Shown here: piece by piece, positions 8,394-40,307 of the stretch
Numbering within the stretch: the first letter of the stretch is position 1
Layout: each line of letters starts with the position of its first letter
Assembly (NCBI GenBank): GCA_017558065.1
Contig: JAFYWK010000057.1
Coordinates: 1-44,821 of the forward strand
DNA: 44,821 nucleotides
Origin: Paludibacteraceae bacterium
Lineage (GTDB): Bacteria > Bacteroidota > Bacteroidia > Bacteroidales > Paludibacteraceae
Reading direction: 5' to 3'
The notes under the pieces: model-generated
Seen by the model: only the letters and a program-made list of their open reading frames with translations
Told to the model about the DNA's origin: nothing
The model's database searches: none
Translations under genes and position numbers: made by a program

Positions 8394-9041
8394 CTAGTCC
8401 TTGCGCTCGATAAGGGCGGCAAGGCTAGGCGTACGCTTGAAATGGCAAGCAAGGAACAGGGGGAACAAGAGGACGCTGTCAGGAAGTATGCAACGCTTGA
8501 CCGCGTTGCCGTTCCATTCCTTGCCGTCAATAAGGACGGCGGGAAGGCGTTCCACGTTCCAGCCATTGGCTTTCACTGCCGCGTGAAGGCCGTTTACCTT
8601 GGCGCGATGAAAGTCGGCCTGTAGGTGGAAACTGCGAACATGGTCGACCACTCGCTGGTCGGCGTTGCCCTGCTTGCCGCCCTTGCCAAGGGAAAACTGG
8701 TCGGCGATGTTGACCAGTTCCGCCCACGTTATGCCATGCGGGGCGTGGTCGATAATAGCAAGGTTGAACTGTCCAGCCGCGCCACGTTCAGAACCGTAAG
8801 CACTAGGGGCTTGACCGCCCTTCATGCGAACCATGCCGCCGGGCGCTGTCTTGCTCTCGACTTCTTCAAAGAAGGTACAGACAGTAGAGCCGGCGAAGGA
8901 CTTCGCCGCGAACCTCTTGTGCATGGTCAAGGCGTGGTTGTCGCCGCGCTCTATCTTGACCTTGCGCTTGCTGGTCGTGGTCGTGGTGGTCGGCGTTGCC
9001 GCCGTGGTCGTGGTGGTCGTGGTGGTGGTATCGTCTAACAT
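8394..9041 (-). CDS. Hypothetical protein with Thr-rich N-terminal repeat, 215 aa
   Basis: Starts MLDDTTTTTTTTTAATPTTT after GGGGAAAG. The Thr run comes from a GGT/CGT-type minisatellite near 8960-9030. The body has a basic linker, a segment like a winged-helix (GITWAELVNIADQFSLGKGG, then a basic stretch with RVVDHVRSFH), and a C-terminal strand/helix region. First gene of the leftward unit from the promoter at 9301. DNA binding is possible; unproven. Confidence 0.6.
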   Translation of the reverse strand: MLDDTTTTTTTTTAATPTTTTTTSKRKVKIERGDNHALTMHKRFAAKSFAGSTVCTFFEEVESKTAPGGMVRMKGGQAPSAYGSERGAAGQFNLAIIDHAPHGITWAELVNIADQFSLGKGGKQGNADQRVVDHVRSFHLQADFHRAKVNGLHAAVKANGWNVERLPAVLIDGKEWNGNAVKRCILPDSVLLFPLFLACHFKRTPSLAALIERKD

Positions 9042-10926: not shown

Positions 10927-12797
10927 CAGCTAAGAAAATCGCTGAGTATAGAGACGGCGGCGAAGGATTTGTGAAATGGTGCAATGAGAACGTCCGCATT
11001 GCTATCTACCCGGAAGGGTCGGATATGGCGCAGTGGTGTCTCCTTGGTGAACTGCCGGAGACACCTAACCCGCATACGGGACGCTCATACGCTGGTATGT
11101 GGCGTAGCCAGCAGAAAATCCTGAAAAAAGCCCTTGAAATGAGGACTGACCCCAACGGTACGAAGCGTTTCAAGCACAGATTGATTGTTCTGTGCTGGAT
11201 GCGCGGTGAGGGTAAGTCCGCTGTCGTTTGCTTGATTCAGATGTGGAAGTTCTTCTGCTGGCCTAAACAGCAAATTGTGCTGGGTGCTAACTCCAAGGAT
11301 CAGACTAAGTTCGTGCATTACGATATCATCAAGGAAATGATATTGAATAGCCCGAACCTCCTCGAATGGATTGGCGGTAGAGAAAACGTACAGGAGAAAA
11401 TGATTTGTATGCGCGATAGTAAGGGTGCTGTTATGTCAGCTATCCGCTCTATCTCGTCTTTCTCAGGTATCGTCTCCAACATCACGGGCTATACGTTCTC
11501 GGAAATGTTCGATATGAACAATCCGAAGTTCTTCACACAGCTTGATGGTTCGACCCGTAACGTGCCTAACGCCCTTGGTACAATCGACAGTACCGTGTCT
11601 ACGAAGGATCACGTCCTTTATAAGATGTATGAGGCGTATGTTCAGAACAAAATCCCGGATTTGTTCTTCTCCTACCGCTGTTCACCCGCTGGAGACCATA
11701 ACGACTTCTATCACCCGCAGAATACGCAGGCTCAGCTTGACTCCTATAAAGAAAAGTTCCCTGCCGCCGAGTTCGATAGATACTTCAAAAACCTCTGGGA
11801 TGCTGGCGCAGTCCGCTTTTTCACGGATACAGACGTTGCTATGACCCATTATTGGGGTGTATATCAACACGCTAATGTGCCTGAGAAGCTCAGAGAGCGG
11901 ATGAATGATATTATGGTGCAAAAAGGCATCGCCGCAGGCCATCTAAAGGAGATGGAAGAGCAAGAAAGCACTATTGCCCTTAGTGAGCAGTACAAATACG
12001 ACCTTGCGCGTATCCAAGATATGGAAAAAGACCTCTATCCTGTCGAGGATACCTTCCGTCTTATGGATAATTTTGGCGAATGGACGTGCGCTACGAGCCG
12101 AGAATTGGCTTTGATGTCGCAAATGTTCAAGACAGACTGGTCAATCCACGTGGGTCTTGACCGCGCTGACCCCATGAGCACGGAAACTATGACCAGAACT
12201 ATCCTTACAATGACTGCAAAGGGTCTTCCGGGGTCTCACAGTGGTTTCCATGCCATTATGGCAGGTAAAGAGCCGCCTTATATCTACATCACTATCGGTT
12301 TTGAAGCCTTCAAAGCCCATGATTTGGATGATATTAAGGAAACTATCCAGAAATGGGCTATTGCGGTGGACGGAATCGACACTTTTTGCTCCGAAAGATG
12401 GGGCGCATGGGACTTGGAGAAGTGGTGTCAAGACGAAGGCATCTCTTGTGAACTGATTTCTCCCACATATGAGAAGCAGAGAGCCTCTTTCAACGAGTTT
12501 TATAACCTTGTAAAGCAGGGAAGATGGAAGATTCCCCCTACTCATTTTATCGGTAGTCGTAACGAGGATGACGTTATTGATGAAGAATTGAAGATTTTCC
12601 TTCATGATCCTGACAAAAAGTGGTTTGGTTCTCCCGAAAAGAAGGCCAAAGGCGGCGTACAGGACGACTGTATCTACTCCGTAGGCTGGTCTATTTATGG
12701 CGGACGTAACCATACCTTTGAGATGTTCCGTCCCCGTGGGCGCAGTATGACAGGTATTGGCTATATTCCCGCTACAGGTCTCCTTGGGGCGTATTGA
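10908..12797 (+). CDS. terL: Terminase large subunit (packaging ATPase/nuclease)
   Basis: 629 residues; ATG at 10908 follows GGAGAAAG. Residues 97-104 (WMRGEGKS) form a Walker A-like P-loop of the terminase type. The C-terminal half has the RuvC-like nuclease pattern: HVGLDRADP with Asp418, and a late QDDCIYSVGW with Asp586/Asp587. It would pump and cut concatemeric DNA at the portal vertex. Size and position directly before the portal agree. Confidence 0.93.
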   Translation: MCALRLTAKKIAEYRDGGEGFVKWCNENVRIAIYPEGSDMAQWCLLGELPETPNPHTGRSYAGMWRSQQKILKKALEMRTDPNGTKRFKHRLIVLCWMRGEGKSAVVCLIQMWKFFCWPKQQIVLGANSKDQTKFVHYDIIKEMILNSPNLLEWIGGRENVQEKMICMRDSKGAVMSAIRSISSFSGIVSNITGYTFSEMFDMNNPKFFTQLDGSTRNVPNALGTIDSTVSTKDHVLYKMYEAYVQNKIPDLFFSYRCSPAGDHNDFYHPQNTQAQLDSYKEKFPAAEFDRYFKNLWDAGAVRFFTDTDVAMTHYWGVYQHANVPEKLRERMNDIMVQKGIAAGHLKEMEEQESTIALSEQYKYDLARIQDMEKDLYPVEDTFRLMDNFGEWTCATSRELALMSQMFKTDWSIHVGLDRADPMSTETMTRTILTMTAKGLPGSHSGFHAIMAGKEPPYIYITIGFEAFKAHDLDDIKETIQKWAIAVDGIDTFCSERWGAWDLEKWCQDEGISCELISPTYEKQRASFNEFYNLVKQGRWKIPPTHFIGSRNEDDVIDEELKIFLHDPDKKWFGSPEKKAKGGVQDDCIYSVGWSIYGGRNHTFEMFRPRGRSMTGIGYIPATGLLGAY

Positions 12798-15620: not shown

Positions 15621-16250
15621 ATGAAGATGTATCCCGGTTCTACTTGGGAATCCCATCAGGTTAATGCCGTGTGGAATCCCCTTAAGGACACAGGCACAAA
15701 TATGCCTTATGTCTCTTTCGCTGATAAGGAACTTGGCGAAAGCCCCCTCTACTACAATAGCCTCACTGCCGCCGCTCTGCTCATTGACAAGACCGTGATG
15801 CCCAACTTTGGTCATCTCCCCACTGGTATTATCATGGGCATTATCAACAAGGGCGACCAGCTTGGTTATATCTTCCCCGCTGACTTTGTTGTCACCGCTG
15901 AATCTGCTTCCAATAAGACTATTGTGGTCTCCGAAGCTGATGCTGTGTTCTTCAAGAATGGCATGACCATCACTTCTGGTAACGTTGTTGCTAAGATTGA
16001 ATCCGTGGAAGTTGCTGGTGGTAAGGCCACAATCACTGTGGACACCGCTGTTTCTTCTACCGCTATTAGCTACCCCTTCGAGCGTTGCGTGGTGATTGAC
16101 CAGCCCGTGTTCTCTGACCAGAACGGTGCGCTGACCTCCGCTATTTATAGCAACGCCACTGTGTACGCCGCCAAGCTCCTCAACGCTACCCCTGAACTGC
16201 TTGATAAGCTCGGTGCTTTCGTTGACGGACACGTTGCCGTTATTAAGTAA
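15621..16250 (+). CDS. Putative head decoration protein
   Basis: 209 residues, AAGGAGC upstream. Located between protease/scaffold and major capsid, the usual place of a decoration protein. Contains a beta-domain (KTIVVSEADAVFFKNGMTIT ... GGKATITVDTAV) that resembles an insert in the major capsid protein downstream. C-terminal NATVYAAKLLNATPELLDKL is helical. Codon use is biased towards C-ending codons like the capsid gene, suggesting high expression. Confidence 0.6.
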   Translation: MKMYPGSTWESHQVNAVWNPLKDTGTNMPYVSFADKELGESPLYYNSLTAAALLIDKTVMPNFGHLPTGIIMGIINKGDQLGYIFPADFVVTAESASNKTIVVSEADAVFFKNGMTITSGNVVAKIESVEVAGGKATITVDTAVSSTAISYPFERCVVIDQPVFSDQNGALTSAIYSNATVYAAKLLNATPELLDKLGAFVDGHVAVIK

Positions 16251-16264
16251 GGAGAGATTTACCA

Positions 16265-17473
16265 ATGAAAGGCTATTCCAATATCCCCGGTTTGCATTTG
16301 ACAGTTCTCCGTCAGCTTGCCTTCGACTACATGGCGAAGGCTCCCAAGCTGTACTTCACTCAGATGTTCCCCGACACCTCCATTGCTTCTGATGAAGCTA
16401 CATGGGAAGTGGAACTCACATCCGCTGGCATCAGCCCCTTCGTTGCTCCCGGTGCTCCTGCTCCTCGCGTGGGCATTGATGGACATACAAGCGGTCGTGC
16501 CAAGGTGGCCTACTGGAAGGAAAAGGCTTATCTTGACGAATCCTTCCTCAACAACCTCCGCCGCGTTGGCTCCTTTGAAAAGGAATCTGCCGAAAAGCAG
16601 ATGGGCCGTATGCTCCAGAAGCTGGTCTGGCGTTCCATGCGCCGTAAGGAATGGATGTGCGCCAAGGCCATTGTGGATGGTGGCTTCACCTACGCCGCCC
16701 AGAACGGTGTGAACTTCACTGTCTCCTACGGTCGCCCTGCCGTGAACACCCTTGCTCTCTCCGAAGACAAGAAGTGGGGAACAGGTTCTCAGCGCAACCC
16801 CATCGAAGACATCTATATGGTTCGTGACCATATGCAGACCCTCTTCGGTGTGAACGTGGACAACATGGTGATGACCTCCGCTACCCTCAAGAAGCTCGTC
16901 ATGGACAAGGAACTCCAGGCTCTCCTGTCCAAGTCTGCTTTCGGTAACGGCGACCTCTTTGCCCGTCCCGCTCAGGTCATCGGCTCTCTGTTCGGTTTCG
17001 GCACAGTGCAGGTGATGGACGAAATGTACGACCTCAACGCTTGGGTCATGGCTGTGGAGGGCACAAACATTGTGGTGGACAACGCTACCGACTTTGAAGT
17101 TGGAGCTCGTCTGATGGTCACAAAGACTGATGAACGCTTCCGTTCTGAATGGCGTACTATCACCGCTGTGAACAAGCAGACCAACACCCTCACCATTGAT
17201 ACTCCCTTCCAGAATCCCCCTCTCGCTGGTCGTGACAAGGTTGAAATGCAACGCAAGTTCATGGATGATGACACCGTTGTGTTCACCAATCCCACCCACG
17301 AAGGCGTTCCCGCCAACGAGTTCCTCCAGGCCCCCTTCGGTATGGACGGTCACTACGGCCTCTACACCGACCGCAAGGACGAATGGGATCCGGACGGCGT
17401 GTATATCCGCGTCCAGGATAAGGGTCTCCCCGTCCTCTACAACCCGCAGAATACCTTCACCCTCAAGGTGTAA
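16265..17473 (+). CDS. Major capsid protein (lambda gpE-like)
   Basis: 402 residues, AAGGAGA upstream. Sequence features such as APAPRVGIDGHTS, a long helix (EKESAEKQMGRMLQKLVWRS), and DNMVMTSATLKKL fit the lambda-gpE capsid family. An extra beta-domain lies at about residues 260-315 (TNIVVDNATDFEVGARLMVT...TNTLTIDTPF), like that of the decoration protein. Its GC-rich, C-ending codons stand out from neighbours and fit very high expression. Confidence 0.9.
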   Translation: MKGYSNIPGLHLTVLRQLAFDYMAKAPKLYFTQMFPDTSIASDEATWEVELTSAGISPFVAPGAPAPRVGIDGHTSGRAKVAYWKEKAYLDESFLNNLRRVGSFEKESAEKQMGRMLQKLVWRSMRRKEWMCAKAIVDGGFTYAAQNGVNFTVSYGRPAVNTLALSEDKKWGTGSQRNPIEDIYMVRDHMQTLFGVNVDNMVMTSATLKKLVMDKELQALLSKSAFGNGDLFARPAQVIGSLFGFGTVQVMDEMYDLNAWVMAVEGTNIVVDNATDFEVGARLMVTKTDERFRSEWRTITAVNKQTNTLTIDTPFQNPPLAGRDKVEMQRKFMDDDTVVFTNPTHEGVPANEFLQAPFGMDGHYGLYTDRKDEWDPDGVYIRVQDKGLPVLYNPQNTFTLKV

Positions 17474-30083: not shown

Positions 30084-30512
30084 ATGGAACAGTTTTGGAT
30101 GCAGAAGTACCTGCGTATCCCTTACAAGGTGCGCGGGTACGACTTTGATGGTTGTGACTGTGCTGGTCTCCTTCGACTGGTCTATAAAGAAGAGCTAGGG
30201 ATTCTCTTGCCTGACTGGGAGAATGAGTATATCAATGTTCGTAGAGAATCCTTCCGAACTTTAGACAGCATCTTTGATGCTGAGACCTCTACTATAGGTG
30301 ATTTCCCCATGAGTGTGCCTCTCGATGAGGTACAACCGTTTGATGCTCTTGTCTTTCGTGTTGGTACAGCAAGAGTGCATACAGGCATTGTTACTAAGAA
30401 GGGACGTTTCCTCCATATTCAGGAAGGCGAACACGCAAACATAGACGATTACAACGGCTTGAAGTGGAAGAATCGTCTGGTAGGAGTTTACCGTCATGTC
30501 TCAAGAATTTAA
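30084..30512 (+). CDS. NlpC/P60-type tail-tip peptidase (gpK-like)
   Basis: 142 residues; ATG at 30084 is chosen over a TTG nine bases earlier. Cys26 in GCDCAGLLRLVY matches the catalytic DCSGL motif of NlpC/P60 enzymes, and His in RVHTGIVTKKGRFLHI is the likely partner. It would cleave peptidoglycan peptides during DNA entry. Overlaps the next gene by 17 bases. Confidence 0.85.
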   Translation: MEQFWMQKYLRIPYKVRGYDFDGCDCAGLLRLVYKEELGILLPDWENEYINVRRESFRTLDSIFDAETSTIGDFPMSVPLDEVQPFDALVFRVGTARVHTGIVTKKGRFLHIQEGEHANIDDYNGLKWKNRLVGVYRHVSRI

Positions 30513-33500
30513 TGCTCCCGCAACACCCTCTGTCAAAGTCCGTGGCTGGGTTGACCCGTTCCACCCTCAAGCTACGGCTTTTGGTTGTGTCATGGCTGGC
30601 ACTACCGTAGCAGATGCCATTTCTAAAGCCTGTAAGGTCGCTAGGACGCGCAAACGCTATATGCGTAGGGGTTTGGTATACCTTGGAAGAAAAACCGCTC
30701 AGGGCGATTATAAATGGACTAGGATCCCCCAGAGTGCTTGGAATAAGGTTCGTCTCAAGCCTAACGACTCTCTTACGTTCCGTCTGCTCCCGGAAGGTGG
30801 CGGTGGCGGTAAAAGCCCTCTTCGTGCCATTCTGAACATCGTTGTGATGGCTGTGGCTGTGGTAGCTACCGTATTAACTGCTGGCGCACTTGCGGGTCTT
30901 GCTGGCTACGCTTCTTTTGCCGCTATGGCAGGAGCCGCTGGCGCAACAATGGCGACTGCCGCTGTTGTTGCTGGTGCGGCACTGGTTGGTGGTCTTGTGA
31001 TGACAATGGGCCAGATGCTTGTGGATAAGATTGCCCCTATAAAGCAACAATCGCTTTCTACTACTGCCGCTGACCAAGAGGATGTCTATTCTCTCTCTGG
31101 CTCTTCCAATACCATTGATAAATGGGGTACTGTTCCTATTCTCTTTGGTAAGGGTAACTTTGCGCCTAAGAAGGCCGCCGCCCCTTATACTGAATTGAAT
31201 AGCGATGATATGTATCTGCACGAACTTTTTATATGGGGTGAGTGTGGTTCAGGTGATATCAAGATTTCTAATCTCAAGCTGGGTGATACGCTTATCACAA
31301 AGTATGATAATGTGGAAGTAGAGACTTGGCGTTTTGACCCCAAGAGTCCTAAATATTCTAAGTTGTACCCCACTGGTGTTATCCAAAAAGACCTCAGTTT
31401 CCTCGTTCGTAATAAGGATGATGAGGGTAAATCTCCTAACTGGTACGAACAATCGTTTGCTAGTGACGATAAGCTGACACGTATTAGTGTTGATATCAAC
31501 TTTAATGCCCTTGTTAAATATGATGGTGGGGGTAACGCTAAAAATTGTTCTGTTACTTTCCTTATACAATATAGGGAGAAAGGCACGTCCACTTGGAAGG
31601 ACTCATATATTGTGAAGGTAAACGATGCGGACATTCCAGAGGCATCTCGTAATTATACTATTACGGCTAAATCATCCTCACCTGTTCGTAAAACATTTTA
31701 TTTAAAAGACGAAAATGGTGTGTATGTTGGCGGTAATAAGTCATATGATGTAAGGCTCCGCCGTACCACTGCTGACCATAATAGTGAGAGTGAGGAAGAC
31801 ACAAAGATTCAGGATGATGCCTATTGGTCTGCTCTTCGTGGGCATACCACGCAGAAACCTATCAATATCAATTACCCTGTTGTCCTTACCGCTATTCGTA
31901 TCAAGGCTACTGACCAGCTCAATGGCTCTATTTCTAATCTGACTGGTGATTACCAAGTTCATATGAAGAATTATAACCAAAGCAAGAAGCAGTGGGAGGT
32001 ATCTGCTACACGCGACCTTATTCCTGCTATCCGTTATGTTCTTCAAGAGTGTTCTGCTCGTCTCCAGCCTGATTCTGTCATAGACTGGGATAACTTTATT
32101 GAGACAGATGCTTATTGGAAATCACTTGGCTGGAAGTACGACAAAGTTCTCAACTCTCAGACTTCCGTGCTGAATATGGTGCAGGATATATGTGCCGCTG
32201 GCCTTGCTTCTCCTACCTTTATTGATGGCAAGTGGGCTGTTATTGTGGATAAGCCCCGTGATGAAGTTGTCATGGGTATCACGTCTGCTAACTCCTGGGG
32301 ATGGTCGGTTGACCGTGTTACTTCTGAACTTCCTCATATTATCCAGTGTGACTTTATTAATCAAGCCACATGGGAATCTGATATGATGGAAGTGGAGGTA
32401 GATAGTTCCTATAAGGAGGAAGGTCGCACACCCATCTACGAAAAGGTGACGTTTGATGGTGTCACTATTCCTAATAATGTCTATAAGCAGGCTCGTTTCC
32501 ACTATGCTGATGCGAAGACACAGGTGAGAACAATCTCCATGACCATGTGGGATGAAAGCCTTGTTGCTACCCGTGGCGACCTTGTTTCTCTTTCTCAGCC
32601 GTATCTCATTCCTGCTGGTCTTGAGGCTGGTCGTATCAAGTCCGTTAAAACAAACGAACAAGGGTATATCACTGCTGTGACCACAGACGTTCTCAATACA
32701 GTTGGTAATGATACGGATGGTCTTGGTATAAAGATATATCTCAGTAATGGTACTATCGCTCACGCCAAACTTGCCGTGAATACTACTGGTGATGATAAGA
32801 CTAAAACTTTGACTTTCAAAGAGCCTATCACTGCCAATATTGAGCGCGGTAATAAGTACACGTTGGGCTATTATGGGGAAGAGGATTTCCTTGCTGTTAT
32901 CACTTCCATGAAGTTTAACGCGGACTTCACTTGTCAGCTCACTTGTGTAGATTACATAGGTGAGAAGTATGGCGTGTTTGACCCCAATTTTGAAATACCC
33001 ACATTCCAGTCGCTTATCACGAAGCCTATTACTGCGTCCACATCCCTGACCACTACCCCCGTGGTAATAAATATTATCACGGATGAACGCGCCCTCATTA
33101 AAGTTGGCAATACGGTGAAATCACGTGCGATGTTCAGCTTCGGTGTACCTTCAAATATTGATAGTCGAGCCGCTTTTATCCGTGGACAATACCGTATTCA
33201 TAATACACTTGATGGAAGTGAGGATGAAATTGTTCCCGGAAAGTGGGTCACATTCTTGAACATTCCTATATCTGAAACAACCGGATATTGTAATGAGGTA
33301 GAAGATGGTGAATCCTATGATTTCCGTTTCCAGTATGTAGCAACGGATGGTAAAACTTCCAATTGGAAAACAACGTGGGCAGGAAATGAGATGACTGGTA
33401 TTACAGTTATTGGTAAAACTTCTCCTCCTCCCGCTATTGGTAATATATACTGTGAGACCGACCCCAATAAAGGTATCAAGTTGGGATGGTCTGGTGTAAA

Positions 33501-35649
33501 CGTACTCGACCTTGACCACTATTCTATCATCGGTGCTGGCATTGGTGGAAGTATCGGCAATGGTGTCCCTGATGCTGAGGATGAAGCAGTCGCCATAAAG
33601 ACTATCGACACACAGTTGTGGATTATGCCCTATGGCGCAGAGGGCGACCTGACATATGGTGTATACGCTGTTGATACATTGGGTAATATGTCGCCTACAA
33701 TGGCTACTATTACCGCAAAGGCCGTTCCTCCTAAGAAACCTGTACCTGTATTTACGAAAACCCAAGACGGCGGTGTTATAACTTGGGACGATTGCAAGTC
33801 ATTATGGGAGATTGACTACTATATCGTGGAAGACGTTCATAATGGGTATAAGCATGATACCATTGACCGTTACCTTGCACTGACACCGAGAAAGGCTGGT
33901 TATGACTACGATTTCAACATCACGGCTGTTGATATATATGGAAATACCAGTGAGGTTGCTAACATAGGGTTTACTGTTGAGAACCCCGCATTTTTAGAGC
34001 GCGATACAGAAGGCAATTTAGTTCCTGTAAAACAATGTGGTGTATCTGTTAAAGATACAAATCTCATTATTAGGTGGCCCACCCCCGTCTCATTGTTCCC
34101 TATAGCCCACTATAGAATAGTAGAAGGTTCTACCACTATTGCGGAGGTTAAGTCCACAGAGTATAGCATGGTTGCCCCTCTTGCGCCTGCTGGCAGTAGC
34201 ACAAATACGCATAGCTATGGTGTTATAGCTGTGGATATCGCAGGAAACGAATCCGCACCTTTAGAGGGCAGTAGAACTATTTACCCCCCTCAAGCTCCCG
34301 GTCTGGTAATGGCTACTAAGAATGGAAGCGTTCTGGATATTACATGGGAAGCTAGTGTCTCCGATATTACTGTTTCTCATTATATAGTGAAGCACTATGC
34401 TACAGATACAGTGAATCCGAAGGTTACACTCATTCCTGAATACACATTGGGCGTGTTCGACACGACTTTTGTTAGTATTCCCGCTGTTATTACTGGTACT
34501 CATACATTTACTGTTACTGCGGTAAATGCTAGTGGTACGGAAGGTGAACCCAAAACTGGTACATTCACTTCGGTTGCTCCCCCTAGTGTAGTATTTGAGG
34601 ATTGCTCTCCTGTTGATAATAACGTAATGATGCGCTATACCGTGGATGCCAATAAGGTATTTTGGCCTATCAAGGAGTATCAAATTTTTGATGTAGAATA
34701 TCTCCCTGATAACACGCCTGTAAAAGCGATACTCGGACGCACCGATACACAGTTCTTTGCTGATATCAAAATGCAGGGTGGAACGTATACATATGGTATC
34801 GTTACGGTAGACATTGTCGGAAACGAAAGTGGCATGGTCACTCGCAATGTTGCTGTAAACCAGCCTCCTAACTTTATTCTGTATACAGATAAAGATAGTA
34901 CATTCAATGGTATTAAAACCAATATGCTGTTGGATGGTGTTGGTGGTATGTATGGCCCTATCGCATACGATGATACATGGGCATCTAACGTATCACGCGT
35001 GGGTTCTATCCTGTCAAAGTCTGATGATACAGTTACTTGGGATGATAAGGTTCAGAACAATATGCCCTTCTTCTTCTCTCCCGAAGGGGGTAGTAACCTT
35101 GTAGGTAGCTACCAGGAGATAGTTGATGTTGGTACGTTAGTTCCTTCCTCCGCGATTACGGTAACTGTGACCAGTAATACGCTTTCTGGTAATCCTACCA
35201 TGACACAGCTCATTGAAACTTCCGAGGATATGGTAACATGGTCTGTTGTTGATACAACTGGCAAGGCTCTTTCTAAGAACTTCCAATATGCGCGTATCAC
35301 GTTGACATGGACAGGTGGCCTTATTTATGTATCAGATATTCATTTTCAGATGGCTTCCTCTGAAATGAATGATGCTGGTAATGTCATCTTTACAGATGAG
35401 GATTATGCTAATAACGACCCTGCTATCGACTCTACGGACGATGAACCCATTGGAAAGCTCGTGAAGTTCAACAAACAGTTTGTTGATATTATCGCTTTTA
35501 CAGGTTTAACCGTTCGTGGTACGGGTCAGAAATCAGCTTATATTATCTTCAAGGATACGCCTAACCCTACATGGTTCAGAGTCTTCATTCTTGACAAAGA
35601 TGGTAATCGCGCTCCTGGACAAGTTGACTGGTCTGTCAAAGGCGTATAG
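30496..35649 (+). CDS. Central tail hub / host-specificity protein (gpJ-like)
   Basis: 1717 residues. N-terminal region is gpI-like with an Ala/Gly hydrophobic stretch at about 107-175. The middle (TKIQDDAYW...DICAAGLASPTFIDGKW) matches the gpJ-type tail hub. The C-terminal half contains several FN3-like modules, each with a YG(V/I)xAVDxxGNxS signature. Ends with a beta domain. Forms the tail tip; FN3 repeats usually aid surface contact. Confidence 0.85.
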   Translation: MSQEFNAPATPSVKVRGWVDPFHPQATAFGCVMAGTTVADAISKACKVARTRKRYMRRGLVYLGRKTAQGDYKWTRIPQSAWNKVRLKPNDSLTFRLLPEGGGGGKSPLRAILNIVVMAVAVVATVLTAGALAGLAGYASFAAMAGAAGATMATAAVVAGAALVGGLVMTMGQMLVDKIAPIKQQSLSTTAADQEDVYSLSGSSNTIDKWGTVPILFGKGNFAPKKAAAPYTELNSDDMYLHELFIWGECGSGDIKISNLKLGDTLITKYDNVEVETWRFDPKSPKYSKLYPTGVIQKDLSFLVRNKDDEGKSPNWYEQSFASDDKLTRISVDINFNALVKYDGGGNAKNCSVTFLIQYREKGTSTWKDSYIVKVNDADIPEASRNYTITAKSSSPVRKTFYLKDENGVYVGGNKSYDVRLRRTTADHNSESEEDTKIQDDAYWSALRGHTTQKPININYPVVLTAIRIKATDQLNGSISNLTGDYQVHMKNYNQSKKQWEVSATRDLIPAIRYVLQECSARLQPDSVIDWDNFIETDAYWKSLGWKYDKVLNSQTSVLNMVQDICAAGLASPTFIDGKWAVIVDKPRDEVVMGITSANSWGWSVDRVTSELPHIIQCDFINQATWESDMMEVEVDSSYKEEGRTPIYEKVTFDGVTIPNNVYKQARFHYADAKTQVRTISMTMWDESLVATRGDLVSLSQPYLIPAGLEAGRIKSVKTNEQGYITAVTTDVLNTVGNDTDGLGIKIYLSNGTIAHAKLAVNTTGDDKTKTLTFKEPITANIERGNKYTLGYYGEEDFLAVITSMKFNADFTCQLTCVDYIGEKYGVFDPNFEIPTFQSLITKPITASTSLTTTPVVINIITDERALIKVGNTVKSRAMFSFGVPSNIDSRAAFIRGQYRIHNTLDGSEDEIVPGKWVTFLNIPISETTGYCNEVEDGESYDFRFQYVATDGKTSNWKTTWAGNEMTGITVIGKTSPPPAIGNIYCETDPNKGIKLGWSGVNVLDLDHYSIIGAGIGGSIGNGVPDAEDEAVAIKTIDTQLWIMPYGAEGDLTYGVYAVDTLGNMSPTMATITAKAVPPKKPVPVFTKTQDGGVITWDDCKSLWEIDYYIVEDVHNGYKHDTIDRYLALTPRKAGYDYDFNITAVDIYGNTSEVANIGFTVENPAFLERDTEGNLVPVKQCGVSVKDTNLIIRWPTPVSLFPIAHYRIVEGSTTIAEVKSTEYSMVAPLAPAGSSTNTHSYGVIAVDIAGNESAPLEGSRTIYPPQAPGLVMATKNGSVLDITWEASVSDITVSHYIVKHYATDTVNPKVTLIPEYTLGVFDTTFVSIPAVITGTHTFTVTAVNASGTEGEPKTGTFTSVAPPSVVFEDCSPVDNNVMMRYTVDANKVFWPIKEYQIFDVEYLPDNTPVKAILGRTDTQFFADIKMQGGTYTYGIVTVDIVGNESGMVTRNVAVNQPPNFILYTDKDSTFNGIKTNMLLDGVGGMYGPIAYDDTWASNVSRVGSILSKSDDTVTWDDKVQNNMPFFFSPEGGSNLVGSYQEIVDVGTLVPSSAITVTVTSNTLSGNPTMTQLIETSEDMVTWSVVDTTGKALSKNFQYARITLTWTGGLIYVSDIHFQMASSEMNDAGNVIFTDEDYANNDPAIDSTDDEPIGKLVKFNKQFVDIIAFTGLTVRGTGQKSAYIIFKDTPNPTWFRVFILDKDGNRAPGQVDWSVKGV

Positions 35650-35657
35650 TTCAGTGT

Positions 35658-35688
35658 TGTGGGACTTTTAGAAGCTAAAAGTCCCACA
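35658..35688 (+). terminator. Long perfect hairpin after tail hub gene
   Basis: TGTGGGACTTTTAG (35658-35671) pairs with CTAAAAGTCCCACA (35675-35688), 14 bp around a three-base loop. Only a weak U-tract follows. TTGACT at 35691 could be the -35 of a promoter for the fibre cassette, with a poor -10 (TACCGT). Confidence 0.6.
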
Positions 35689-35764: not shown

Positions 35765-37018
35765 ATGGCTACGAGCATCAATAGTCCTAATCTTTCTAAC
35801 CCGATTCGTACTGATGTACCCGCTATCAATACGATATTGAAGGCTCTCGCTAAATTTGACCCTTCTGTTCTTGAAGGTATCGAGAACGGTACTAAACGAA
35901 TAGTTGCTAGTGGTGATCGTTATGTCGTTCAGTATTATGAAGATGGGTCTTGGACTACCAAAAAGAAGTTCGATATTGATGCCACATCAGTTAGTGGTAG
36001 TTATGTATCAGTAGAAGCCAAAGCTAATGCTATTGCTTTGCGTGATGCTGATGGTAAGTTAGCCGGTGATATTACTGGTAATGCCGCTACGGCTTCAAAA
36101 GCTATAGCATTAGCTTCCACCCTTTCTGTTGCTGGTGGCGGTACAGGTGCTGATAATGTCGCTGCCGCCCGTGCCAATCTTGGTGTGCCTCCTACTTCTC
36201 ATGCATCTACTGGTACGTCTTATGGTGTGAGTACAGCTACAGAATATGGTCATTCTATGGCGGGTAGTGATACCCCCAAGGCTAATAGTGATACTGGTTC
36301 TGCTGGTACGGATACCACCCATTTTGCAAGGCAAGACCATGTTCATCCTGCCACTACCGCTACTGGTGGCGTGTTGGGTATGGTAAAATTATCCGATTAC
36401 CCCAAAGATTCAGACGTTAACGCCGGTATTGCCGCTACACCGACTGCTGTTAAAAAGGCATATGATTTAGCAACGGAAGCTAAGACAGCCGCATCTGATG
36501 CCGCTACTGTCGCCGCCACCGCCCAAGCTACCGCTGAGAGTAAATTATCTTCTATCACTGCTGGTACGGGTATTGCTGTATCTGGCTCCACTGTTTCTCT
36601 TGGTACTGTGGTTACTGCTGGCAATGGTGGCCCTACTGCTAATGCTACTTTATCCTATGGTGGTACATTTACAGTTCCGTATTTTACTTATGATGCCTAT
36701 GGTCGTGTCACAGGTAGAACCAATCGCACCATGACAATGCCTACAGCTCCTACCACTGTTAGTGGTAATGCGGGTTCGGCTACTAAATTAGCTACAGCTC
36801 GCTATATCACTATTTATAGTAAGTCTGGTGGTTATGGTAATAACTTAACAATGAGCAGGACAAGCGGCGTTGGTAATTTACGCGTATCTTTTGACGGGAG
36901 TGCTAACGTAGCAATAGCCACCTGCTCTGGTAATTGTTCATCAAACTGTTCTACCAGTTGTGGTGGTAGTTGCTCTACTGCTTGTGGCAGTGGTGGTACT
37001 GCCGGCGGTGATAGTTAA
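35765..37018 (+). CDS. Tail fibre with C-terminal Cys-x3 repeat
   Basis: 417 residues, GGAGG upstream. Fibre features: DGKLAGDITGNAATASKA, a VAGGGTGADNVAAARANLGV motif common in phage fibres, a shaft with Ala/Thr-rich helix, and an end domain (SATKLATARYITIYSKSGGY; VSFDGSANVAI). The last 31 residues carry six Cys at 387, 391, 395, 399, 403 and 407, each exactly four apart, in Ser/Asn/Gly/Thr-rich sequence, then a GSGGTAGGDS tail. Only these Cys occur in the protein. Next to two radical-SAM enzymes, this suggests a modified tip. Fibre call firm; modification inferred. Confidence 0.88.
   Translation: MATSINSPNLSNPIRTDVPAINTILKALAKFDPSVLEGIENGTKRIVASGDRYVVQYYEDGSWTTKKKFDIDATSVSGSYVSVEAKANAIALRDADGKLAGDITGNAATASKAIALASTLSVAGGGTGADNVAAARANLGVPPTSHASTGTSYGVSTATEYGHSMAGSDTPKANSDTGSAGTDTTHFARQDHVHPATTATGGVLGMVKLSDYPKDSDVNAGIAATPTAVKKAYDLATEAKTAASDAATVAATAQATAESKLSSITAGTGIAVSGSTVSLGTVVTAGNGGPTANATLSYGGTFTVPYFTYDAYGRVTGRTNRTMTMPTAPTTVSGNAGSATKLATARYITIYSKSGGYGNNLTMSRTSGVGNLRVSFDGSANVAIATCSGNCSSNCSTSCGGSCSTACGSGGTAGGDS
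36923..36985 (+). other. Encoded C-x3 array, six cysteines at the fibre tip
   Basis: Codons for Cys387 to Cys407 encode five CxxxC units with spacers SGN, SSN, STS, GGS and STA. The period is constant. The spacing resembles the CX3D repeats of ranthipeptides such as freyrasin, with Asn or Ser at the +3 place in four of five spacers. Confidence 0.75.
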
Positions 37019-37035
37019 TTTAGTGAGGTACAGTT

Positions 37036-37869
37036 ATGGATAATACAACTCTTTATACGGTAAACGATAAACCGTTCTTTGAGTATCCCGATACGTTTAG
37101 AACAATTGATATATCGGCTGATACAGTTGACATCATCCAATATAAGGCTAGATACTCTTCTGAATGTGAGTACAGTATGGTATTACGCTCTGCCCCAAAG
37201 TTTGTTATGGGTACAGACCACGATACTGAGAACAAGAATGGTTATTATGTTTATTATAAACATACCATCAAACTTGAAGATTTACGTAAATCATCTGAGT
37301 TCCAAGACGGCTCTATCTACGTTCTGTATTGCGGTAAAGATGGGGAGTATAGAGGTTGCTACAATCTCCTAGCATCTACTGCTTACTCCCGTACCACAGG
37401 TCGTGACCATCGTTTTGGTATGATGACAGGATTCCCTATCGCCTTTGTGTATGTTCAATCCGTTAATGATACATTTCTAGACATGAAGTGGTTGTTCATA
37501 CAAGATAAACATTGTCCTAGCAAAACAAATCTTGATTTAAACGCCATCAAGATTGAAAACGCTTTTAGTAAAGATAGGATGCTGGATTTGTTTGGTTTTG
37601 TTGAGTTTAAACTTGAGCAAGTTGCGGATACCGCCGAATACTTTGTGGTTGAGGCTACAGCTGTGGAATCTGATGGTACAATATCAGACAAAGAACTGTC
37701 TATGTATCTACAATCTAACTCTGGGTATCTTCCCAAAATGAAACTCACCTTTACCGGAAAGACGCAGTTTAAAGTGTACAAGTTTGGACTGGATAAGGGT
37801 GACACCATCGAGGTAAAATCCGGATACCGTTTTTGGCAGAATACCAGCAAGGTTATATTAACCGTGTAG
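37036..37869 (+). CDS. Unknown protein of the fibre-radical-SAM cassette, 277 aa
   Basis: GTGAGGT precedes ATG. Starts MDNTTLYTVNDKPFFEYPDT. Largely beta-stranded; the last ~80 residues form a probable Ig-like domain (EYFVVEATAVESDGTISDKE ... KVILTV). No signal peptide, Cys cluster or known motif. Its place between the Cys-tipped fibre and the first radical-SAM gene, with nine bases to the latter, suggests a role in binding, presenting or capping the fibre. A second structural protein or a fibre chaperone is an equal possibility. Confidence 0.6.
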   Translation: MDNTTLYTVNDKPFFEYPDTFRTIDISADTVDIIQYKARYSSECEYSMVLRSAPKFVMGTDHDTENKNGYYVYYKHTIKLEDLRKSSEFQDGSIYVLYCGKDGEYRGCYNLLASTAYSRTTGRDHRFGMMTGFPIAFVYVQSVNDTFLDMKWLFIQDKHCPSKTNLDLNAIKIENAFSKDRMLDLFGFVEFKLEQVADTAEYFVVEATAVESDGTISDKELSMYLQSNSGYLPKMKLTFTGKTQFKVYKFGLDKGDTIEVKSGYRFWQNTSKVILTV

Positions 37870-37877
37870 GGGTAATA

Positions 37878-39134
37878 ATGTACTCATTCGACATCATTAG
37901 TAATATTGATGGCCGTCAAGATGTGTTGCTGTTTGATGAAAAAACAGCAACACTTTTTGACATTAACCATAACCCTATACCTGTTTCGGGGTATAATAAA
38001 GATAATAGTATTGTTATCCGTATTTCTTTAGGTACAGAATGTAATAATAAGTGTATCTATTGTCAGCAACATATGGTCTGTAAATCCCATTTAACGGATA
38101 ACTTTGAAGAGACGGCTGAAAGGTTTGTATCCAATTTATACACCTTTATTGCTAATCGTTTCTCTGATGTAACTGATCGTAATATAGCCGTGTCTTTTTG
38201 GGGTGGTGAGCCTTTGTTATATATTGACCGTATCAAAGTGCTTATACCCTTACTGAGAATGGTGTTCGGCAACCTCAATTTCTTCATTATCACAAACGGT
38301 ATCTTATTATCAGACGATATAACATCCTTCTTGATTGATAATGGTGTTTACACCAATATTTCCCATGATGGCCCGGGCCAGAAGATATGCCGTAACGTAG
38401 AGATTCTTGATAATAATGATACTCGCGCTAACATCTTACGCTTGATTGATGCTGGACTATTATCTTTTTCTCCCGTTTTCACAGTACACAACCCCACAAT
38501 ACGAAACTGGATGTGGTATATGTACAATTATTTGGGGGATAAAATATATAAAGTTAATGGTGTTAGTACGATGTACATACGACCAGTTACGGAAGACCAT
38601 TCCAAATTATTACCCTCTCCTGTGCATATACAGCAAAATACGGACGACATCATTGCCTGTATTAGAAGAACTGATTTGGCTGTAGCACCGTTCGCTAAAG
38701 AGGTTAACAACAACATATGGCAAATGCTTGAGGTTTTACATACGCATAGCCCTCTTTATCCCTATTGCAATTCATCAAAGCCTAATGTGATATCTGTTGA
38801 TGTTATTGGTAATGTATGGAAGTGTCATAATTTTATTGACCCTGCTAATACATCCAATATCGCTGGTAACATTTTTACAGACGTACACATTGATAAAGAT
38901 TGGGTTAGTCACAAAACAGACGTTTGCAATGATTGTCTATGTCAGCTTATTTGTCATGCAGGATGCCCATTAGAAGGATGCCATACAAATACTTGTTGGT
39001 ATAGGTATCACACACTTTTGCCCATGTTTTATATGGCGATTGATGTTCTTACTGGTGGGGAGTACACTTTACTTAATATTCGTCATATTGGGAGTAAATA
39101 TGGACAAGACATGGATAGTGATGGTCAACAGTGA
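37878..39134 (+). CDS. Radical SAM/SPASM enzyme 1
   Basis: 418 residues; ATG at 37878 follows AGGGGT. The CxxxCxxC motif is Cys55-x3-Cys59-x2-Cys62 (TECNNKCIYCQQH), binding a 4Fe-4S cluster that cleaves S-adenosylmethionine. FWGGEP near residue 108 is the SAM-binding GGE motif. The C-terminal SPASM-like region (from about residue 295) has PYC..., GNVWKCHNF and a cluster of Cys (CNDCLCQLICHAGCPLEG) for auxiliary clusters. Such enzymes modify peptides, commonly crosslinking Cys. It overlaps enzyme 2 by 35 bases. Confidence 0.92.
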   Translation: MYSFDIISNIDGRQDVLLFDEKTATLFDINHNPIPVSGYNKDNSIVIRISLGTECNNKCIYCQQHMVCKSHLTDNFEETAERFVSNLYTFIANRFSDVTDRNIAVSFWGGEPLLYIDRIKVLIPLLRMVFGNLNFFIITNGILLSDDITSFLIDNGVYTNISHDGPGQKICRNVEILDNNDTRANILRLIDAGLLSFSPVFTVHNPTIRNWMWYMYNYLGDKIYKVNGVSTMYIRPVTEDHSKLLPSPVHIQQNTDDIIACIRRTDLAVAPFAKEVNNNIWQMLEVLHTHSPLYPYCNSSKPNVISVDVIGNVWKCHNFIDPANTSNIAGNIFTDVHIDKDWVSHKTDVCNDCLCQLICHAGCPLEGCHTNTCWYRYHTLLPMFYMAIDVLTGGEYTLLNIRHIGSKYGQDMDSDGQQ

Positions 39135-40182
39135 TTGTAATCTGCGGTGTAAATACTGTTTTGAGGATAAAACCAATAAGACTAATAGTGTATCTAATAT
39201 AAAGATATATATGGATAATATTATTCGTTCCTTATTAGATTCCCCCGGTAACGCTGTTGTTGATCTTTTCGGTGGCGAGCCTTTCTTGCATTTACCTTTG
39301 CTTGATGAAGTTACCGATTACTTTATGGACGAAGCAGAGAAGTATAATGTACAGGATAGGTATATGTTTAACTTAACTACGAACGGTACATTATTTAATA
39401 ACGATTCTGCAAAAGCGTTTATTAAGAAGATTTCTGGTAATTGTCATGTTGGATTCTCAATAGATGGGCCGCGCCATATCCATGATGTGAATCGCGTCAC
39501 TATTGATGGAAATGGCAGTTATGATAAAGCCGTTGAAGGCTTTCATATCTGTAAAGAGTATATTCCTATACAGCGGCTTTCAGCTAAGGCTACTATCAAT
39601 CATGCTACTATGCATGATTGGGAAACTATAGTGCGGCATTTACTAGATTTAGGGTTTAAGCGTGTAGGTGCTAATGTTGTGTTCGAGGAAACGTGGGGAG
39701 AAGAGGAATTTTATATACTTGCCCCTCAATTTATAAATGTTGCTGAGTATTTATATAGTAATAATCTGCTACATGAGATTGAAGTTGACCAGATAAACAA
39801 AGGGTATAGTATAGCCCTTTCTCATCCGGATTCAACAAGTAATTCTTGTGGGGCTTGTATTCACATGAGATGTCTCGGTATTGATGGTAAAGTGTATGGC
39901 TGTCAGAAATTTGGTTCTGTTACGGGTATGCCTCATTTAGGCGAAATAAAAGATGGGGATATTGTTATAACTAATAGCAATATCATATCTGAGGTTACAA
40001 ATAGTCGTAAATACCTCGATAAGTATTGTGCTGACTGTTTATTCAAAGCCATGTGCTACAACTGTGTCGCAGATGCTTACGCTATAGGTATCAGTGTAGA
40101 TGAGATGTATAGTCGTAAATCCCAGTGTGGTTATACGTGCGCCAAAGGATTTACTAAGTTATACCTTTTAAATAGAGAATAG
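39100..40182 (+). CDS. Radical SAM/SPASM enzyme 2 (anSME/sactipeptide-maturase type)
   Basis: 360 residues; ATG at 39100 follows GGGAGT. Cys13-x3-Cys17-x2-Cys20 (DCNLRCKYCFE) is the SAM-radical motif and FGGEP lies near residue 58. The SPASM region reads CGACIHMRCLGIDGKVYGC near 248-266 and CADCLFKAMCYNC near 310-322. It resembles anaerobic sulfatase-maturing and sactionine-forming enzymes. It is clearly different in sequence from enzyme 1, so two distinct reactions or sites are possible. AT-rich codon use compared with the capsid genes suggests separate acquisition. Confidence 0.92.
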   Translation: MDKTWIVMVNSDCNLRCKYCFEDKTNKTNSVSNIKIYMDNIIRSLLDSPGNAVVDLFGGEPFLHLPLLDEVTDYFMDEAEKYNVQDRYMFNLTTNGTLFNNDSAKAFIKKISGNCHVGFSIDGPRHIHDVNRVTIDGNGSYDKAVEGFHICKEYIPIQRLSAKATINHATMHDWETIVRHLLDLGFKRVGANVVFEETWGEEEFYILAPQFINVAEYLYSNNLLHEIEVDQINKGYSIALSHPDSTSNSCGACIHMRCLGIDGKVYGCQKFGSVTGMPHLGEIKDGDIVITNSNIISEVTNSRKYLDKYCADCLFKAMCYNCVADAYAIGISVDEMYSRKSQCGYTCAKGFTKLYLLNRE

Positions 40183-40221
40183 AAATAAGCCCTCTAGCAG
40201 TTCACTAGAGGGCTTATTTCT
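40181..40221 (+). terminator. Strong terminator after radical-SAM cassette
   Basis: A 17-bp stem, AGAAATAAGCCCTCTAG (40181-40197) with CTAGAGGGCTTATTTCT (40205-40221). It nearly matches the terminator at 44188-44224, sharing AAATAAGCCCTCTAGC. Confidence 0.85.
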
Positions 40222-40274
40222 ATATCCTGCCATTAAATAACGCATTGCTTTCCTCTTTTTCCTGTGTTACCTTG

Positions 40275-40298
40275 CCCCTTATTCTAACCAATAAGGGG
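40275..40298 (+). promoter_or_regulatory. Hairpin covering a ribosome binding site
   Basis: CCCCTTATT (40275-40283) pairs with AATAAGGGG (40290-40298), 9 bp, six-base loop. The right arm contains the AAGGGG ribosome binding site of the 40308 gene. It could limit translation initiation. Confidence 0.5.
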
Positions 40299-40307
40299 TA
40301 TTTTATT

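Follow-up and report, generated by a model that had tools for sequence, protein, structure and literature searches.

The window, a stretch of 44,821 nucleotides that makes up positions 1 to 44,821 of contig JAFYWK010000057.1 (assembly GCA_017558065.1) of a Paludibacteraceae bacterium, contains a tailed-phage module encoding the large terminase, head protease, major head protein, tape measure, minor tail proteins and a lambda-J-like tip protein. Immediately 3' of the J-like gene, four consecutive genes flanked by terminator-like hairpins (35658-35688 and 40179-40223) form what is hereafter called the cassette. It encodes a predicted tail fibre with a Cys-repeat tip, a 277-amino-acid (277-aa) protein and two radical S-adenosylmethionine (SAM)/SPASM enzymes, rSAM1 and rSAM2, whose open reading frames (ORFs) overlap (37878-39134; 39100-40182). 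This gene order had been proposed from the letters and ORF translations alone, without database searches (the sequence-only reading), and is borne out by the ORF coordinates and the family matches. The pairing of such enzymes with periodic-Cys proteins was found again in many other phage loci, and the fibre tip is therefore a candidate substrate of the two enzymes. The features are as follows.

30496..35649, plus strand: lambda-J-like tail tip protein, before the cassette (PF24801, E 3e-16)
35658..35688, plus strand: terminator-like hairpin 5' of the cassette, 14-pair stem (consensus match only)
35765..37018, plus strand: predicted tail fibre, 417 aa (weak family matches; position after the lambda-J-like tip protein; resemblance to the fibres of loci L474 and L477)
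36923..36985, plus strand: fibre tip, six Cys with exact i+4 spacing, residues 387-407 (sequence reading, shuffles, codons)
37036..37869, plus strand: 277-aa protein, a recurring partner of rSAM1-type enzymes, with a C-terminal GYLPK..GL..G....K.G motif (profile relatives)
37878..39134, plus strand: rSAM1, radical SAM/SPASM enzyme, 418 aa, grouping with phage enzymes that adjoin CXC-tipped proteins (families, tree)
39100..40182, plus strand: rSAM2, radical SAM/SPASM enzyme, 360 aa, CXXX-maturase-like, grouping with gp103 of the jumbo phage SPN3US (families, tree)
40179..40223, listed on the minus strand by the scan: strong 20-pair terminator-like hairpin at the cassette end (terminator scan)

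The starts of rSAM1 and rSAM2 are taken as the ATG codons at 37878 and 39100, respectively; the listed ORFs open at TTG codons (37833 and 39040).

The fibre contains exactly six Cys, at residues 387, 391, 395, 399, 403 and 407 of 417, all within its last 31 residues. The six Cys at exact four-residue spacing that the sequence-only reading had placed at the fibre C-terminus were thus confirmed by the residue positions. In 200,000 shuffles of the fibre residues, the longest i+4 Cys run was four (reached four times) and runs of five or six never appeared, so a chance run is rejected. The tip codons are varied, with both TGC and TGT and several Ser codons, and because of this variety the origin of the tip as a simple DNA repeat was also rejected. 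By family search the fibre is identified weakly (PF03406, E 0.0013, under its cut-off; PHROG tail fibre, E 0.007), and it is assigned as a probable tail fibre from these matches together with its position behind the lambda-J-like protein and its likeness to the Cys-tipped fibres of L474 and L477. These two loci, which are close to the window by rSAM2, encode tail fibres ending in a CX3 array (L474, long tail fibre, E 2e-10; L477, tail collar fibre, E 1e-51). Their arrays come straight after an F(D/N)GS..I element resembling that of the window fibre, a likeness judged by eye; automatic alignment gave 36% and 27% identity with L474 and L477, respectively, but set the F(D/N)GS..I elements off against each other.

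Both enzymes have the general features of radical SAM/SPASM peptide maturases, namely the CX3CX2C cluster motif, the Radical_SAM domain (PF04055, E 5e-10 and 9e-13) and a SPASM-type Cys pattern, and both also match peptide-maturase families and PHROG 1802 (radical SAM protein). Read from the sequence, the SPASM-type Cys are CX13GX4C, CX2CX5CX3C and a later C in rSAM1, and CX12GX4C, CX2CX5CX2C and a later C in rSAM2; the usual SPASM motif has CX3C where rSAM2 shows CX2C. The top NCBIfam scores of rSAM2 were for the PapB ranthipeptide maturase (164.9 bits, E 3e-48) and TIGR04115 (154.1 bits, E 7e-45, against a cut-off of 350), and the SCIFF maturase TIGR03974 also ranked high (108 bits against a cut-off of 425). 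rSAM1 is more remote, its best NCBIfam match again being PapB (71.6 bits). Neither enzyme belongs to PapB proper, since both scores lie below the cut-off of 340 and the target is CX3C instead of CX3D/E. As for TIGR04115, a CXXX-repeat target does lie nearby, as the six-Cys fibre tip in the same gene row, and the NCBIfam scan of the four cassette proteins gave no match to the partner families TIGR04116 and TIGR04119. Two of three other phage enzymes pass the TIGR04115 cut-off (L333, 511.8 bits; L101, 385.6 bits), and SPN3US gp103 falls below it (125.6 bits). Among solved structures, the one nearest to rSAM2 in sequence is 5wgg (E 4.5e-25), which we take to be CteB, a thioether-forming SCIFF maturase. 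Scans of viral contigs with rSAM1 or rSAM2 as single proteins gave no relatives, and the searches below were made with alignments.

The sequence-only reading had staked itself on the co-occurrence of Cys tips with such enzymes in other phages, and the pairing does recur repeatedly. In the search with an alignment of three CXXX-type phage enzymes (A3), a CX3C run with four or more Cys lay on the strand of the enzyme in 68 of 70 viral loci, and a Cys run on the opposite strand was found in 2 of 70; after the enzymes were clustered at 70% identity, 38 of 40 clusters had the run on the enzyme's strand. The seeds of A3 include L208 and L214, which were first found through their arrays, and the 70 loci, though found by enzyme, include these two seeds' own contigs (L316 and L375). 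With an alignment of the window rSAM1 and gp030 of Achromobacter phage JWF (A2), 274 viral loci were confirmed and the best 80 examined; in 40 of these a CXC run with four or more Cys lay on the enzyme's strand, and none had a run on the opposite strand (20 of 30 clusters with a CXC run). With a wider rSAM1 alignment (A6) in named bacterial genomes, the best 80 of 163 confirmed loci gave the same number of CXC runs on the enzyme's strand (40/80; 23/43 clusters) and a run on the opposite strand in 2/80. Cys-tip prophages of cultured hosts in this set include examples from Limnohabitans and Rhodoplanes strains. The opposite-strand counts in A2, A3 and A6 loci take any of three spacings. With an alignment of the window rSAM2 and two jumbo-phage enzymes (A4), CX3C arrays were found in 15 of 16 loci, and 12 of those 15 loci are SPN3US-like. 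CXXX-type loci without an array were L373 and L374 among the 70 and L489 among the 16.

The Cys spacing follows the type of enzyme. In the two rSAM1 sets, CXC runs were found in 40/80 and 40/80 loci and CX3C runs in 0/80 and 0/80, while the CXXX set had CX3C in 66/70 and CXC in 0/70; the higher count of 68/70 above is due to a looser residue filter (60% instead of 75%). For comparison, among 213 viral loci, CXC runs lay on the plus strand in 8 loci and on the minus strand in 10, and this set is biased towards arrays because it was chosen by Cys-codon patterns. Matches listed in the Cys-pattern scans were mostly low-complexity DNA, and L101, L208 and L214 came from these scans. Very long arrays were also encountered: L356 (2-4682) and L347 (195-5241) have tandem CXXX-array ORFs before one radical SAM gene, with up to 104 Cys per protein, and a 45-Cys ORF (L069, 5715-6815) lies a few kb from a CXXX-type radical SAM gene on the same 292-kb viral contig of a huge phage (L371).

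The grouping of the enzymes was examined in a tree of 74 enzymes. The window rSAM1 falls on the side of the rSAM1-type phage enzymes (CXC-tip type, support 100/97), and the window rSAM2 falls on the CXXX side with the jumbo-phage enzymes (99/99). In this refined assignment the two window enzymes would belong with two different phage enzyme groups, the CXC-tip type and the CXXX type. Five bacterial enzymes from the host family nest among the phage CXXX enzymes. At E 1e-30, rSAM2 has matches in 11 of 200 host-family genomes, the window's own included, and a CXXX-array ORF was present in the locus of all ten others. In L390, one of these ten, proteins that exceed the TIGR04115, 04116, 04117 and 04119 cut-offs occur together with a precursor bearing a twin-arginine-like leader (leader recognised by eye). 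In the host-family loci L387, L390 and L393, CXXX systems with twin-arginine-like leaders adjoin TatA/TatC-like genes (by eye), and their enzymes nest among the phage enzymes.

A different phage radical SAM family, of the Campylobacter phage CP220 type, served as negative control, and Cys arrays were absent from all seven loci (0/7), three of them CP220-like and four at the same 37% identity. Four of these seven loci also have an ORF weakly like gp103 (2e-7), again with no array. The many radical SAM genes of CP220 are treated as metabolic in the part of its authors' description that concerns them (PMC2853527). An explanation of the window genes as metabolic or decorative genes of the CP220 kind was rejected on the 0/7 count. 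Among four other weakly matching phage records, an array adjoins the enzyme in MT837480 (L231), and no adjacent array was found in CP220 (L232) or Vibrio phage K566 (L233). CP220 encodes a hypothetical protein with a regular CXXC run (16207-16578), about 6.8 kb from the examined enzyme and outside the strict filter. K566 has four radical-SAM-type genes within about 7 kb, with no clear periodic-Cys neighbours. In Phage Phass-1 (L234), which recodes a stop codon, a short loose-Cys ORF (CNTCNVGCDIQCRTCITCNSC, 11489-11722) lies just behind a weakly matching radical SAM gene.

Phages thus do carry radical SAM genes without adjacent arrays (CP220 family, K566). This would fit a fibre tip that is merely disulfide-bonded or metal-binding, as in iron-bearing phage spike tips, with the enzymes acting on something else, for example the 277-aa protein or a molecule of the host. 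The strand-specific pairing in two enzyme groups, the tracking of Cys spacing with enzyme type, and the absence of a 277-like protein from CXXX-type stretches that still hold enzyme and array argue against this explanation, which is considered quite improbable.

The 277-aa protein gave no match above threshold in Pfam, NCBIfam, PHROGs or PDB, no match in 50,697 phage records, and only itself in 358 host-family genomes. By iterative profile (E < 1e-3), relatives were found in 33 of 80 viral rSAM1 loci (15/30 clusters) and 54 of 80 genome rSAM1 loci, with the C-terminal GYLPK..GL..G....K.G motif conserved among them; none was found in the other loci then examined, including the CXXX-type stretches with enzyme and array. 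The order seen in the window, with Cys-tailed protein(s), the 277-like protein, a radical SAM enzyme and an rSAM1-type enzyme, occurs in L291 and in cultured Parasutterella muris (L469). In place of the 277-aa protein, JWF and the jumbo phages have proteins that show no detectable relation to it: homology of the jumbo-phage middle protein with the 277-aa family was rejected (hhalign probability 0.2%), and the JWF middle protein gave no match to the family (phmmer only). The 277-aa protein may be a fibre accessory or assembly protein. In L427, an uncultured Duodenibacillus contig, a 277-like fragment is followed by five radical-SAM-like ORFs, and the examined stretch shows no clear Cys-tip ORF.

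Where it can be told, the carriers of the arrays appear to be tail proteins. Besides the fibres of L474 and L477, the array ORFs of L336 lie between baseplate genes and a weakly fibre-like gene, a fibre/baseplate-type gene is upstream in L290, and a lambda-J protein is present in L242; the array protein of L101 had no match in PHROGs. In the JWF fibre (L006, 5700-7151), a Hint domain (Hom_end_hint, E 3e-12) comes directly after the CXC run NCNCDCNCNCSC. Similar sub-threshold Hint matches lie behind the CXC run in L250 (3993-5135) and L256 (3736-5289), and none was found in L274. Self-cleavage by the Hint domain would put the Cys run at the new fibre C-terminus.

These arrangements bear on whether the fibre C-terminus might carry a true ribosomally synthesised and post-translationally modified peptide (RiPP), cut off and released as a bacteriocin or signal. 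Host-family bacteria with stand-alone CXXX-repeat precursors and related enzymes are in its favour, as is the location of some phage arrays on short separate ORFs. Against it, no protease or exporter family was found among the four cassette genes in the Pfam, NCBIfam and PHROG scans, the array follows a normal fibre part in the window, L474 and L477, and the Hint domain of JWF stands directly behind the Cys run, so that self-cleavage would leave the run on the fibre. A released product is therefore highly improbable.

Counterparts of rSAM2 also occur in SPN3US-like jumbo phages. Of 50,697 phage records, rSAM2 matched 82, and in 78 of these the match spanned at least 80% of rSAM2, with about 30% identity among the matches listed; by name, 34 are Erwinia phages, 22 Salmonella phages and 20 only 'Bacteriophage'. 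In the four examined closely, CR5, SPN3US, Phobos and Kwan, the gene order is a virion protein, small ORFs with long CXXX runs, a protein of about 295-327 aa, and two radical SAM genes. The CXXX-array ORFs of SPN3US and CR5 are at the following positions.

L003, 7097-7489, 7500-7904 and 7920-8126: CXXX-array ORFs of SPN3US
L002, 7151-7543 and 7513-7956: CXXX-array ORFs of CR5

In both records these ORFs are left unannotated or lie under a wrong-frame or antisense hypothetical protein. One of the small array ORFs, which belongs to PHROG 6085 (function unknown), has a conserved N-terminal part that was found in 69 phage records; among 60 listed records, the array ORF has no annotated feature in 26 (SPN3US included) and is a hypothetical protein in 34. 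Two genes upstream is the tail protein gp168 (original SPN3US numbering), which according to passages of PMC5105663 resembles phiKZ gp131, a protein placed at the baseplate periphery, possibly with fibres. SPN3US virions have already been analysed by mass spectrometry, as part of the published work states.

Apparent counter-examples arose among the Salmonella phages, where the N-terminal part of the array ORF was found in 32 records and the enzyme in 22. In SPFM6 and SPFM10 (L502 and L503), the sequence appears to run in reversed blocks of about 60 bases, and matches occur only as pieces of about 20 residues in inverted order. Both records contain fragments of gp102 and the array ORF, and one also contains fragments of gp103, the examined stretch of the other ending before gp103. 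The block scrambling appears to be a record artefact that hides genes from searches.

Elsewhere in the window, the terminator scan gave 7 sites in all against 2.9 (standard deviation 2.0) in shuffles, among them a further plus-strand site past the cassette (40273-40300) and a weaker plus-strand site inside rSAM1 (37923-37953). An ORF at 8394-9041 on the minus strand has a long threonine run at its start.

Taken together, the C-terminal tip of the fibre is probably modified covalently by the two phage-encoded radical SAM/SPASM enzymes, with a thioether as the likeliest chemistry (rough probability 0.7). The sequence-only reading had proposed that the enzymes cross-link the fibre tip. Its first part, action on the tip, is well supported by association, because the co-occurrence recurs in other phages; the cross-linking itself we infer, thioether formation at Cys being the likeliest chemistry by family resemblance. 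The most likely account is RiPP-like radical SAM chemistry applied to a part of the virion. The Cys-repeat tip would be the substrate, or core, and the rest of the fibre would act as leader, with rSAM1 and rSAM2 modifying the tip ahead of virion assembly or in the course of it. Family resemblance makes rSAM2 the most likely enzyme for the CXXX units, with rSAM1 acting in tandem, and the 277-aa protein may help to present or assemble the fibre. Because nothing need be cleaved off, the modified segment would remain in the virion, where it would make contact with the host, and its purpose may be a rigid, protease- and redox-proof receptor-binding tip.

Several points weigh against this account. 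Neither window enzyme is over a curated cut-off in its 25 best-scoring NCBIfam families, both sit on long branches of the tree so that their exact place is unsure, and the program warns that the joining of rSAM2 with the jumbo-phage enzymes may be false. The window pairs a CXXX tip with an rSAM1-type enzyme that otherwise stands beside CXC tips, strict CX3C runs being found in 0 of 160 rSAM1 loci. In addition, half of the rSAM1 loci have no strict CXC run, some having CXXC or looser Cys tails and some contigs being cut. The locus counts are not independent, since each search returned loci that are related to one another and the viral and genome sets share members, and the negative control covers two lineages only.

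The chemistry was further considered from residue statistics. Between the cysteines of CXC runs, 46% of the residues were Asn, 25% Ala and 21% Asp (n = 103), and Asn preceded the first Cys in 19 of 22 runs; this near-fixed N/A/D suggests that a fixed neighbour may be the acceptor. The 1,779 CXXX units, taken from one locus per cluster, had no fixed side chain at any position, and G, S and T were common at all three; the lack of a fixed side chain and the frequency of Gly at all positions suggest the alpha-carbon or Cys itself. Modification without cross-linking, such as epimerisation or a change at or beside Cys that leaves the six Cys for disulfides or metal, would suit CXXX units in which no partner side chain of the PapB kind is evident, and radical SAM peptide enzymes are diverse, with cyclophane and other types among the NCBIfam matches. 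However, the best-scoring families form thioethers (PapB for both enzymes, and the SCIFF maturase high for rSAM2), an alpha-carbon cross-link needs no fixed side chain, and in CXC runs the residue between Cys is nearly always N, A or D, which is what a fixed acceptor would produce. Modification without cross-linking is thus regarded as unlikely, and thioether cross-linking of the tip is retained as the preferred chemistry.

A wider proposal, held with slightly better than even confidence, is that many tailed-phage lineages cross-link periodic-Cys tips (CXC, CXXC, CXXXC) on tail fibres or other tail-module proteins through radical SAM/SPASM enzymes, sometimes exposing them by Hint self-cleavage, to give covalently hardened receptor-binding tips, and that the bacterial CXXX systems are maybe a domesticated offshoot. 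To our knowledge, radical SAM peptide chemistry is known mainly from small released peptides and a few enzyme maturations. No description of radical-SAM-modified phage fibres was found in the open-licence literature searched, a scope that leaves out most subscription papers and all preprints, and the available portions of PMC6143709 and PMC10352776 contain nothing on them; this would apparently be a widespread virion-maturation chemistry undescribed so far. If true, radical SAM peptide maturation has been redirected to a permanent virion part, the tip that meets the host, and phages have a new way to build stable binding tips. Several hundred radical SAM genes from these two groups, in phages and prophages, could also gain a function, as could the small CXXX ORFs left unannotated in SPN3US and other records, and enzymes acting on large structural proteins would become available.

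Among known systems, the CXXX-repeat systems (TIGR04114-TIGR04119) share a radical SAM/SPASM maturase adjoining a protein with a long CXXX run. rSAM2 is a distant relative of these maturases, and the phage enzymes of L333 and L101 and the 109-aa helper of L101 are over the curated cut-offs. In the bacterial loci examined, the target is a peptide of its own bearing a twin-arginine-like leader, and TatA/TatC-like genes lie nearby (both by eye), whereas the window target is a predicted tail fibre. Both window enzymes score best in NCBIfam with the maturase of the PapB/PapA ranthipeptide system, far short of its cut-off (340). PapA/PapB has an i, i+4 spacing (CX3D) with six links in the portion of PMC9413430 that treats it; the window tip shares the spacing but has CX3C, no Asp in the repeat and a fibre as substrate. 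The SCIFF maturase (5wgg) is, among solved structures, the closest in sequence to rSAM2, which is below the TIGR03974 cut-off. The SCIFF substrate is a short Cys-rich peptide. SPN3US gp102/gp103 (RefSeq) are similar in layout, with two radical SAM genes in a row, and rSAM2 groups with gp103; the SPN3US-like phages differ in that their arrays are on separate small ORFs (PHROG 6085) and their middle protein has no detectable relation to the 277-aa one. Thuricin CD and ruminococcin C (PMC12093266 and PMC8188230) use two radical SAM enzymes per product. The window also has two such enzymes, but the products of those sactipeptide systems are released antimicrobial peptides and not parts of a virion.

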